A DNA stretch of 64,000 nucleotides from Verrucomicrobium sp. GAS474 (GTDB lineage: Bacteria > Verrucomicrobiota > Verrucomicrobiia > Methylacidiphilales > GAS474): NCBI RefSeq assembly GCF_900105685.1, contig NZ_LT629781.1:868001-932000 (forward strand), written 5' to 3'. The notes under the pieces are model-generated. The model searched no databases. It had not been told where the DNA came from and saw nothing but the letters and a program-made list of their open reading frames with translations. Every line of letters begins with the position of its first letter. Position 1 is the first letter of the stretch. Made by a program: the position numbers and the translations under genes. Positions 7,147 to 9,300 of the stretch are shown piece after piece.

Positions 7147-7920
7147 CTACGGCTTCGCCGGGGCGGGCAGCGCGGGCGGCGGCGGGAGGAAGCCGAGGTT
7201 CCGCAGGGAGAGGAAGAGCCGGTCGAAGGGCAGGGGATGGGTATCGGCGAGTTTCAGGAAGGCGACGCGGCGCGCTTCCATCAGCTTCTCGGTGGCGGCG
7301 GTCTGCTCCGGGGTGAGGTGGAAGGAGTCGGCGGTGAGGCGGAGGAAGGGCTCGTACATCACGATGTGGAGGAGGGCGCGGAAGAGGCGCTCCTGCTGCC
7401 GGCGGCGGGTCCGCCCGTCGTTGTCCCCCGCCGCGCCGGGGGCCGCGCCGAAGGGGGCGGGCTGGGCCTGCTGCGCCTGGGGCCCCAGGCGGTTCTCGGC
7501 GAGGCCGTGGAATTCGGCGATCCAGTCGACGCCGCCGGAGCCGCCGCCGCCGGGGCCGCGCATCTGCTCGCGGAGCTTCTTCTGCTCGTCGGTGAGGAGG
7601 GCGGCGAAGCGGTCGTCGTAGTCCTTGGTGAGGGCGAGGTAGTCCTTCTGGAAGGCGGCCAGTTCGGGCTCGATCTCGGCCATCTCGGCCCGGAGCTTGG
7701 CGATCTGCTCGGCCGTGGGCGCGGGGCGGCGGTTCTTGTCCTTATCCTTGTCGCGATCGTCCCGTGCCGCGTCGCCGGGCCGGGGAGGCGCGCCGGGGCC
7801 GGTCCACGGCACGGGAGGGAGGAGGGGCGGCGGGAGGTGGAGGGTGATCCACCAGCCGAGCGCGACCCCGACGAGGAGGATGGCGACGCTGCCGAGGATG
7901 AGGGGGAGCCGGGTTTTCAC
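7147..7920 (-). CDS. Membrane-anchored Spy/CnrX-like periplasmic sensor candidate
   Basis: Protein of 257 aa with one N-terminal membrane helix (LILGSVAILLVGVALGWWIT) followed by a Pro-rich linker, a highly charged stretch (DKDKDKNRR) and an all-helical domain. Two LT-x-EQ elements, LLTDEQKKLREQM and HLTPEQTAATEKLMEARR, are typical of the CpxP/Spy/CnrX helical-hairpin family, which senses metals or misfolded proteins. A Gly-rich loop lies between the halves and a Pro-rich tail ends the protein. It is the last gene of an operon with an ECF sigma factor and a one-helix protein, the same three-part composition as CnrYXH. Function by analogy only; few His or Met ligands are visible. Confidence 0.7.
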   Translation of the reverse strand: MKTRLPLILGSVAILLVGVALGWWITLHLPPPLLPPVPWTGPGAPPRPGDAARDDRDKDKDKNRRPAPTAEQIAKLRAEMAEIEPELAAFQKDYLALTKDYDDRFAALLTDEQKKLREQMRGPGGGGSGGVDWIAEFHGLAENRLGPQAQQAQPAPFGAAPGAAGDNDGRTRRRQQERLFRALLHIVMYEPFLRLTADSFHLTPEQTAATEKLMEARRVAFLKLADTHPLPFDRLFLSLRNLGFLPPPPALPAPAKP

Positions 7921-7947
7921 GAAAGGGAGGGGCGGGGTTGAAGGAAG

Positions 7948-8244
7948 CTATTCCAGGGTCTCGACCCACTGGGCGAGGCCCTTCCATTCGTCGACGCGGG
8001 CGTTGGCGGTCGAGGAGGCGCTCCAGCCGTTGAACTCGACGTAGCCGAGGAGGACGAGGGAGAGGGCGAAGGCCGACATGACCATGACGCGGGCGTTTTC
8101 CCGGGCGGTGACGGCCTCGGCGCGGAGCCGGGCGGTTTCGGCGAGGATGCGGGCGGCGAGGTTCGGCGCGAAGGCGGGCGCGGCCTGGAGTTCGAGTTCC
8201 TGCCAGGGCAGGCGGCCGGAGGGGGAGTCGGGATTAGGGTTCAT
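7948..8244 (-). CDS. Small one-helix protein, putative anti-sigma factor
   Basis: 98-aa protein with a soluble N-terminus (residues 1-50, helical, ending in LRAEAVTARENARV), one membrane helix (about 51-70, VMVMSAFALSLVLLGYVEF) and a short C-terminal extracytoplasmic tail. No zinc-finger (HxxxCxxC) anti-sigma motif is present. Its start overlaps the end of the sigma gene by 11 bp, implying translational coupling and probable functional pairing. Size, topology and context resemble CnrY-type anti-sigma factors, which bind sigma through a short cytoplasmic N-terminal segment. Sequence similarity to CnrY is not evident by eye, so the assignment rests on context. Confidence 0.6.
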   Translation of the reverse strand: MNPNPDSPSGRLPWQELELQAAPAFAPNLAARILAETARLRAEAVTARENARVMVMSAFALSLVLLGYVEFNGWSASSTANARVDEWKGLAQWVETLE

Positions 8245-8974
8245 GTCGCGTCCTTTCGATTCTGAGCTTCAGCAGGGCCTTGGCGCGGTGGACGCGGGTC
8301 TTCAGCGCCCCCACCGTGATGCCGTAGCCGGCTGCGATTTCTTCGTAACCGGTTTCCCGGTCCTGCACAAGGAGAAGGAGGGCGCGGTCCCGCGCGGGGA
8401 GGGTCTTCAGCGCGGCGCGGAGGAGGAGGAGGTCGTCGCTCGGCTCCTGGTCGACGGCGGGGGTCTGGGCGGCGACTTCCTCGTGCCGGTCGGAAAGGGG
8501 GGAGAAGAGGCGGCGGAACCGCTCGCGCCGGAGGTGGCTGAGGCAGGCGTTGCGGGCGGCCTTGAAGAGCCACGCCTCGAAGCGGGCCGTCTCGCGGAGG
8601 CGGTCGAGGGAGAGGAAGATGCGGACGAAGACGGTCTGGGTGAGGTCGTCGACGTGGGAGGAATCGCCGAGCATGCCGTAGATGAATCCGCCGAGGCGGC
8701 GGCGGTAGGCGGCGATGAGGGCCTCCTGGGCCGCGCCCTCGCCGCGGCGGGCGCGGACGACGAGGTCTTCCAGCTCCTTGGCCTGGGCGGCTTCGGCGTC
8801 GAGCTTGGCATCGGTCGTCTTGCCGTGGGCGTCGTCCATCATGGGATGCGGGCGTTGGAAGGGGGCGGGACGGACGCGGGTCTGGGAGGCGCGCTGGGCC
8901 GCGACCCCGTCGAAGGCCGAGAGGAATGTGTAGAGTTCATCCCAAGCAGGGTTGGCGGCAAAGCCCGTGTTCAT
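8234..8974 (-). CDS. ECF-type RNA polymerase sigma factor
   Basis: Group IV sigma factor. Region 2 contains LGGFIYGMLGDSSHVDDLTQ and TVFVRIFLSLDRL with FEAWLFKAARNACLSHLRR (core binding and -10 recognition). A linker of about 45 residues follows. Region 4 is LPARDRALLLLVQDRETGYE followed by an HTH, EEIAAGYGITVGALKTRVHR. The reading as given is 246 aa; the first 44 residues precede the conserved domain and are Pro/Arg-rich, so the real start may be the ATG at 8842 (MMDDAHGK), and neither start has a clear Shine-Dalgarno sequence. First gene of the three-gene signalling operon, overlapping the next gene by 11 bp. Confidence 0.88.
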   Translation of the reverse strand: MNTGFAANPAWDELYTFLSAFDGVAAQRASQTRVRPAPFQRPHPMMDDAHGKTTDAKLDAEAAQAKELEDLVVRARRGEGAAQEALIAAYRRRLGGFIYGMLGDSSHVDDLTQTVFVRIFLSLDRLRETARFEAWLFKAARNACLSHLRRERFRRLFSPLSDRHEEVAAQTPAVDQEPSDDLLLLRAALKTLPARDRALLLLVQDRETGYEEIAAGYGITVGALKTRVHRAKALLKLRIERTRHEP

Positions 8975-9064
8975 CTGATCGGCATGACCGCCCGACCCGA
9001 GAGGAGGTTACACCAAATGTCACGCCAGTGGCGAGGGCGGACTAGGGGACAGAACCGAAGCGGC

Positions 9065-9300
9065 CTTCTCCCAATAGGAGTCTAGGCGTCTTGGTCCCAT
9101 CTCCCCCCGCAATCCGTACCCTCGGACGCTCGGGAAGCAGCCGATTTTAATCCAGTTCGGAAATAAGGCGCCGCCCAAGCGCGTCCGCCTAGCTAAGGCC
9201 CTCAGAGGGGGAGGTTCGAGGAGGGGCGAAGCCCCTCTTGGGCTATAAAGCGGGTTACCTCCACCTGTACAGGGTCGCCCCCGCCAGCCCCAAAGGGCCG
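9065..9300 (+). repeat. Composite repeat family, solitary half-unit A (copy 1)
   Basis: About 236 bp in the sigma/dnaB intergenic region (gap 8975-9415), matching half-unit A at 22633-22870 and the A halves of the two full composites. Shared landmarks in order: CAATAGGAGTCTAGGCG, GATTTTAATCCAGT, GCGTCCGCCTAGCTAAGGCC, the strong hairpin GAGGGGCGAAGCCCCTC, TATAAAGCGGGTTAC, CTGTACAGGGTCG and GCCAGCCCCAAAGGGC. No coding potential is believable. The remaining bases of the gap (8975-9064, 9301-9415) hold the two promoters but no motif I can assign. Confidence 0.85.

Follow-up and report, generated by a model that had tools for sequence, protein, structure and literature searches.

In this work, we analysed a cassette of three genes in the genome of Verrucomicrobium sp. 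GAS474 (NCBI RefSeq assembly GCF_900105685.1), located within a stretch of 64,000 nucleotides (contig NZ_LT629781.1, positions 868,001 to 932,000) that is referred to as the window in the following. All three genes are encoded on the minus strand. The first gene (8234..8974) encodes a sigma factor of the extracytoplasmic function (ECF) type, comprising 246 amino acids (aa) when read from ATG 8974. It is followed by the gene for a 98-aa single-pass membrane protein, a candidate anti-sigma factor (7948..8244), and by a gene with a GTG start codon for a 257-aa N-terminally anchored protein of the LTXXQ type, which is presumably periplasmic and represents a candidate sensor (7147..7920). The three open reading frames (ORFs) are open over these intervals; the genes for the sigma factor and the small protein overlap by 11 bp (8234-8244) and a gap of 27 bp precedes the sensor gene. 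A first-pass annotation of this DNA had described a CnrYXH-like cassette composed of an ECF sigma gene, a one-helix protein of 98 aa whose gene overlaps the former by 11 bp, and a further one-helix protein with two LT-x-EQ segments and a Gly-rich insert. The ORFs, the Pfam sigma regions, the single hydrophobic segment of the small protein and the features of the third protein all agree with this description of the parts. The evidence detailed below makes it very likely that the trio is a real, conserved and probably autoregulated sigma/anti-sigma/sensor module.

The trio recurs in related genomes. The window genome (G000), which consists of one contig of 3.76 Mb, carries another trio of this kind at 1.88 Mb. 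Its genus-mates G001 and G002 carry two trios and one trio, respectively, and G010 and G020, which belong to another family of the order, carry one each; in G039, the contig stops after the small gene. At the level of the order, a sensor profile matched 11 of 62 genomes, and at the level of the class it matched 39 of 384. Among 35 loci fetched with this profile, 20 have a sigma gene within ~1.5 kb on either side, and seven further genomes, all from one family, were verified to contain the trio including a small gene that can be recognised. Scanning named genomes with the sigma alignment provided a larger set, that is the best 80 of 82 loci, mostly from Opitutaceae/Opitutae and in addition from Methylacidiphilaceae UBA1321. 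A sigma ORF is present in 79 of these 80 loci (L173 lacks it), and the 79 sigma factors form 31 clusters when a crude, ungapped comparison is applied with a threshold of 90% identity. The small gene follows the sigma gene in 77 of the 79 loci (70 detected by profile, 7 more by ORF) and the sensor gene is found downstream in 75. The two loci without a small gene end 105 and 268 bases past the sigma gene, and the four loci without a sensor gene end within 378 bases. An 11-bp overlap as in the window was counted for 56 of 70 loci, a number to be read with a start choice that was biased toward the expected place. As the sensor gene and the small gene accompany the sigma gene in 75 and 77 of the 79 loci, respectively, the recurrence of the trio is beyond chance. 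Thus, the search for the trio and its promoters in other Verrucomicrobiota, which had been suggested in the first-pass annotation, indeed retrieved the trio together with a shared promoter.

The layout extends beyond the trio family itself. In a second tier of loci (L021, L047, L063, L064, L070 and L071), divergent sigma genes are followed by a gene for a protein of 95-122 aa and then by a gene for an LTXXQ-like protein. These small proteins apparently contain a single transmembrane segment, have no Pfam match at cut-off and align weakly with the small proteins of the trio family (hhalign 62%). At L063, a second, nearly identical LTXXQ segment is located after the sensor gene (1889-2218) and looks like a duplicate of the C-terminal part of this gene.

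The shared promoter became apparent upon inspection of the regions upstream of the sigma genes in the relatives, which display the sequence x-G-x-A[AT]C-TTT, a variable spacer and CGTC-x-x-GC. The pattern A[AT]C-N16-CGTC is present in 75 of 76 upstream regions, with L157 as the exception and with L103, L158 and L166 dropped for lack of an anchor match; the 75 matches comprise 68 distinct 23-mers. Other spacings from 8 to 25 were detected in at most 18 of the 76 loci, and shuffling of the upstream regions yielded a mean of 1.5 matches when mononucleotides and of 2.0 when dinucleotides were shuffled, with a maximum of 7 in either case. Only 2 of 22 other ECF sigma genes are preceded by the pattern. 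The value of 75 out of 76 is post hoc: The initial pattern AAC-N16/17-CGTC was picked by eye in 15 upstream regions, of which it matched 10 (dinucleotide shuffles: at most 2; other ECF genes: 1 of 24), its N16 form matched 14 of 72 regions in the larger set, and the broader A[AT]C was adopted only once these sequences had been inspected. Nevertheless, a sharply defined spacing and invariant bases on both sides of a variable spacer speak against chance. In the window, a degenerate ECF-like promoter is located upstream of the sigma gene (8986..9012, minus strand), reading TGTAACC...GGTC with the arrangement AAC-N17-GGTC, and the sister copy in G001 has TGTAACC with AAC-N16-CGTC. A motif of this kind is the expected mark of a sigma factor that directs its own synthesis, suggesting that the trio is probably autoregulated.

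The sigma factor exhibits the architecture of the ECF class, that is Sigma70 regions 2 (Sigma70_r2, E 2e-16) and 4 (Sigma70_r4_2, E 1.7e-9) in the absence of region 3, and it is 38-56% identical to 14 aligned relatives. Since ATG 8974 is located only 11 nt past the promoter-like GGTC and since the first ~45-60 residues are missing from most aligned relatives, the true start may rather be ATG 8842 or 8839, which would yield a protein of ~200 aa. A comparison with solved structures returned SigW as the best match (E 2.1e-26), and CnrH (4cxf) followed behind ten other entries (E 1.5e-18). For phylogenetic placement, a tree was calculated from 45 sigma factors, for which 20 of the 80 loci were combined with 15 trios and 10 outgroup rows. 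Herein, the window copy groups with one of the G001 copies (support 100/99) and is separated from the genus's second trio (support 97/91). This separation suggests that two old paralogues exist and that the window trio is one of them, residing on a long branch of a tree whose bootstrap is unsettled and in which CnrH occupies a very long branch.

The transmembrane segment of the 98-aa protein comprises residues 53-71 (8032..8088) according to hydropathy (mean Kyte-Doolittle value 2.0). Such a segment was detected in 84 of 85 small proteins of a sample that, like the sample of 90 sensors used below, contains some species twice. The N-terminal side carries the more positive charge in 84 of the 85 proteins; therefore, the N-terminus probably faces the cytoplasm. 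The periplasmic part would accordingly encompass only ~27 residues. In front of the membrane segment, the small proteins carry a unit of 31 residues with the pattern W-x2-L...A-x2-L...FA-x-RVLRAA. For counting, 7 small proteins found as ORFs were added and 84 unique sequences were kept of 92. Two copies in tandem are present in 43 of these 84 proteins, with a period of 31 residues in all 43 cases and a median identity of 47% between the copies. The window protein carries a single copy of the form W-x2-L...FAxRVLRAA at residues 13-42 (8119..8208), which matches a hidden Markov model of the unit with an i-E of 9.8e-10. A structure model of the window protein, with a predicted local distance difference test score (pLDDT) of 86 and a predicted template modelling score (pTM) of 0.39, shows a helix at residues 13-24, a turn and a continuous helix from residue 29 to 97 that passes through the membrane. 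We infer that the 31-residue unit is the part that binds the sigma factor. In agreement with the first-pass annotation, which had noted no recognisable zinc motif, the HxxxCxxC signature is found in 0 of the 84 small proteins, and the window protein contains neither His nor Cys. A class I zinc anti-sigma factor was therefore rejected.

The third protein carries an N-terminal membrane anchor at residues 7-25 (7846..7902), as deduced from hydropathy, and an anchor was detected in 87 of 90 sensors. Conserved positions are found in the first LT-x-EQ motif, LTDEQ, at residues 109-113 (7582..7596; among the 90 sensors, L109 in 99%, Q113 in 98%), in the second motif, LTPEQ, at residues 202-206 (7303..7317; L202 in 93%, Q206 in 100%), and in a C-terminal stretch RRxxFLxLxDxxPxP...L at residues 217-235 (7216..7272; R218 in 100%, D226 in 98%, L235 in 93%). 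P36 is also among the conserved positions. The Gly-rich insert at residues 122-130 (7531..7557) is present only in the alignment row of the window.

Family searches relate this protein to the LTXXQ proteins at a distance. The window sensor alone scored 13.4 bits against LTXXQ (PF07813; E 0.13), which is below the curated cut-off of 24.3, and 11 of 15 family members scanned matched at E<=0.1 (best 0.0012). When the sensor family was compared by hhalign with a set consisting of the six second-tier sensors and an LTXXQ-like protein of G001, a probability of 97.8% was obtained for the first half only; of the four second-tier sensors of this set that were scanned, two pass the Pfam LTXXQ cut-off. 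Matches to Spy are weak, with E 1.2e-4 for PDB 3oeo and a best E of 0.0014 for NCBIfam Spy, which 3 of 15 members match, and the best PDB profile match, apolipoprotein A-I (7.9e-5), is a sign of low specificity. The sequences thus point to a relation to LTXXQ that is remote only. The structure model of the sensor (pLDDT 79, pTM 0.64) is all-helical but has no significant match to a solved fold, as specified below, so that the helical-hairpin fold considered in the first-pass annotation is neither supported nor contradicted. CnrX and Spy were not among the fold-search matches listed, which proves nothing either way.

Searching genomes for the promoter pattern pointed to few possible targets, and the three described first have support beyond the pattern itself. 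In G001, a small LTXXQ-like gene (L096, 967-1491, minus strand) begins 9 nt past AAC-N16-CGTC, a promoter of the kind seen for the window paralogue. Its product reaches 23.6 bits as compared to the LTXXQ cut-off of 24.3 and contains a His/Cys-rich stretch, and a relative in G002 has AAC-N17-CGTC upstream. G010 and G039 share a possible target, that is a gene for a seemingly membrane-anchored protein with an MT-x-E-x-R motif, which is 58% identical between the two and preceded by the promoter in both; the other 58 genomes searched, including G020, yielded no match at E<=1e-8. Two ECF-type promoters face each other at the second trio of G000 (L031, 2028-2124), one directed toward the trio and the other toward the gene for a Ser-rich protein of 365 aa without Pfam family. 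The facing pair is also present in G002 (L036), and G001 has a GGTC variant of it (L032). An efflux-adaptor operon at position 451730 of G000 was set aside because inspection by eye revealed no such site upstream of the G001 orthologue; the G002 contig begins too close to the efflux-adaptor gene to judge. Further sites in G000 are found at 3092302 (sugar-transferase-like), at 785920, beside a dispersed repeat, and at 834427.

To account for these observations, we propose that the three genes form one operon and operate as an autoregulated ECF sigma switch. In the resting state, the 98-aa protein, inserted via its one membrane helix with the N-terminus in the cytoplasm, would hold the sigma factor through the two-helix 31-aa unit, as CnrY does with CnrH, and the anchored, helical LTXXQ-type sensor would in turn hold the short periplasmic tail of the 98-aa protein. 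A periplasmic signal, for which stress on the envelope or on protein folding is a likelier source than nickel or cobalt, would alter the contact between sensor and tail, thereby releasing the sigma factor. The freed sigma factor would transcribe its own operon from the promoter located just upstream and probably also a few targets, some of which may encode other LTXXQ-like proteins. Taking all steps together, we consider this mechanism probable, albeit with considerably less confidence than the existence of the module. A more far-reaching version, which we regard as rather doubtful, posits that sigma factors are bound by the 31-aa unit as a minimal and modular element, which occurs singly or in tandem and defines an unnamed class of anti-sigma factors. 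In this version, the Spy/CpxP-like sensor of chaperone type would report the state of periplasmic folding by titration rather than metal and would induce further LTXXQ-like proteins.

Several observations weigh against the proposed mechanism. First, 15 of the 35 loci fetched with the sensor profile lack a recognisable sigma gene within ~1.5 kb, most of these being weak matches and one lying at a contig end. Second, no homology could be detected between the small protein and CnrY or any of the anti-sigma families in Pfam: The window protein matches no Pfam family at E<=1, none of 15 small proteins matches the CnrY family PF17524 at E<=0.1, as compared to 2.2e-51 for CnrY itself, and hhalign of the small protein family with CnrY gives a probability of 0.4%. 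Third, a Foldseek search of the sensor model against the PDB returned no match at E<=0.001, and VIA gave a best Z of 6.5, obtained for designed helical bundles and below the value of ~13 that the tool names for such folds. Fourth, the window promoter departs from the family form in having a spacer of 17 nt and GGTC. Finally, a promoter scan of 13 genomes yielded 101 sites as compared to 81 sites for a reversed-pattern control (7 versus 1 in G000, 2 versus 5 in G001), and earlier scans of G000, G001 and G002 returned 5, 2 and 7 sites (controls 2, 6 and 5) and 3, 4 and 3 sites (controls 1, 1 and 0), respectively. A large regulon is thus unsupported, and the target lists are weak because the sites barely exceed the control; moreover, G000 lacks the LTXXQ-like target present in G001.

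It is also conceivable that the sigma factor is activated by regulated proteolysis. That is, the third protein would shield the anti-sigma factor as RseB shields RseA, and stress would expose the latter to membrane proteases. This scheme draws support from the SigAb-AabA-AabB system of Acinetobacter baumannii, which has the same layout and for which the accessible part of the report states that the data are consistent with a scheme of the Escherichia coli RpoE type (PMC12153292). However, the periplasmic part of the anti-sigma candidate is short, with only ~27 residues, and the third protein is LTXXQ-like and membrane-anchored; we therefore consider proteolytic release possible but somewhat doubtful.

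A second alternative concerns the signal. In CnrX, the metal ligands are a His/Met set. Across the 90 sensors, no alignment column reaches more than 31% His/Cys and no internal column contains Met in 40% or more, and the median number of His and Cys residues per sensor is two. As judged from these columns, a His/Met metal site is not a property of the sensor family, which supports the doubt over a metal signal voiced in the first-pass annotation. In addition, no efflux-like ORFs were seen at 4.5-13 kb of the window when translations were read, without family search. The third protein might still be a metal sensor of the CnrX type if the metal that triggers release were bound by residues varying between relatives or by Asp/Glu, which may serve as ligands. 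Indeed, the window sensor contains five His and Cys residues and D226 is nearly invariant. Metal_resist (PF13801), which CnrX matches at 7.5e-26, is weakly matched by 7 of 15 sensors at E<=0.1 (best value 0.00038, which may fall short of the cut-off), but the window sensor itself gives no match at E<=1. According to the accessible parts of the respective reports, CnrYXH (PMC4803752) and the copper-responsive SigAb system (PMC12153292) are built from the same kinds of parts. On balance, we consider a metal sensor unlikely. It is very unlikely that the 98-aa protein is an assembly partner of the sensor rather than an anti-sigma factor, with the sigma factor being controlled otherwise, e.g. by the sensor or solely by its own transcription: The small protein lacks homology to known anti-sigma domains and AabB alone also lowered SigAb activity in E. 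coli, as stated in the accessible part of that report (PMC12153292), but an anti-sigma factor is what its position and predicted topology, the gene overlap and the co-occurrence would lead one to expect.

Concerning its surroundings, the trio looks like an isolated operon. Upstream, a gap of ~440 bp separates it from a divergent dnaB-like ORF, and the downstream neighbour is an oxidoreductase-like ORF on the opposite strand, both labels being readings of the translations without family search. Between the trio and the dnaB-like gene lies a dispersed repeat of ~211 bp (9080-9290). Including this copy, it was scored at 40 places of the genome with matches of ~200-211 bp at 85-90% identity, these 40 having been scored out of 186 first-look candidates; G002 contains only shorter pieces of the repeat and G001 none.

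Taken together, Opitutaceae and relatives of the window genome harbour a conserved branch of a layout composed of a sigma factor, a CnrY-like protein and a periplasmic sensor, which has been studied in a few proteobacteria, and this branch shows a precise promoter code. No description of the trio in Verrucomicrobiota was found in the open-access literature among the matches listed, and a published ECF group may well exist. The most notable aspects are the tandem 31-aa unit and an LTXXQ sensor without conserved His/Cys; the layout itself has already been found in a few other bacteria. Provided that the 31-aa unit binds the sigma factor, it would represent a natural anti-sigma module of very small size that comes with its own duplication variants, which would be handy for testing how sigma domains are held. 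Should the signal be something other than a metal, LTXXQ proteins could serve as general envelope sensors for ECF sigma factors.

The comparison with CnrYXH of Cupriavidus metallidurans holds for the layout of the parts. Both systems combine an ECF sigma factor, a small protein with a single transmembrane segment and an anchored helical periplasmic sensor, and the window protein resembles CnrY (94 aa, single transmembrane segment, Trp near the N-terminus) in outline, being a zinc-free, two-helix, single-pass protein of ~95 aa. However, sequence comparison gives nothing: Neither homology of the small protein to CnrY nor homology of the sensor to CnrX was detectable, the latter reaching an hhalign probability of 0.4% against the single CnrX sequence, and CnrH is not the best-scoring sigma factor. 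Moreover, the Cnr genes are arranged in the order Y-X-H followed by the cnr efflux genes on pMOL28, whereas the order in the window is sigma-small-sensor, a difference that the first-pass annotation had correctly pointed out. Membership in CnrYXH was therefore rejected, considering that PF17524 is unmatched, the gene order differs, conserved His/Met ligands and adjacent efflux genes are missing and CnrH is not nearest among the solved structures. With the periplasmic proteins Spy and CpxP the sensor shares the LT-x-EQ helical segments and weak profile matches to Spy, but it is longer, membrane-anchored and fixed beside a sigma/small-protein pair. In Azospirillum brasilense, an operon composed of RpoE8, a hypothetical protein and a periplasmic heavy metal sensor is upregulated by RpoE6, as far as the accessible part of the report goes (PMC12826043), and it has the same gene order and type of annotation, a likeness at the level of annotation. 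By layout, the nearest known system is SigAb-AabA-AabB, which is closer than CnrYXH. The accessible part of its report describes overlapping genes in the order sigma, anti-sigma and periplasmic protein, with AabA as a 107-aa transmembrane anti-sigma factor modelled as CnrY-like and AabB as a helical periplasmic protein with anti-sigma activity, and an autoregulated promoter (-35 GTCAAC, -10 CGTT) with a small regulon (PMC12153292). SigAb belongs to a different phylum and is responsive to copper, and AabB has a predicted signal peptide. As far as can be told from this description, the window trio nonetheless presents the same order of a sigma factor, a single-pass membrane protein of ~100 aa and a helical, presumably periplasmic protein, with overlapping genes for the former two.

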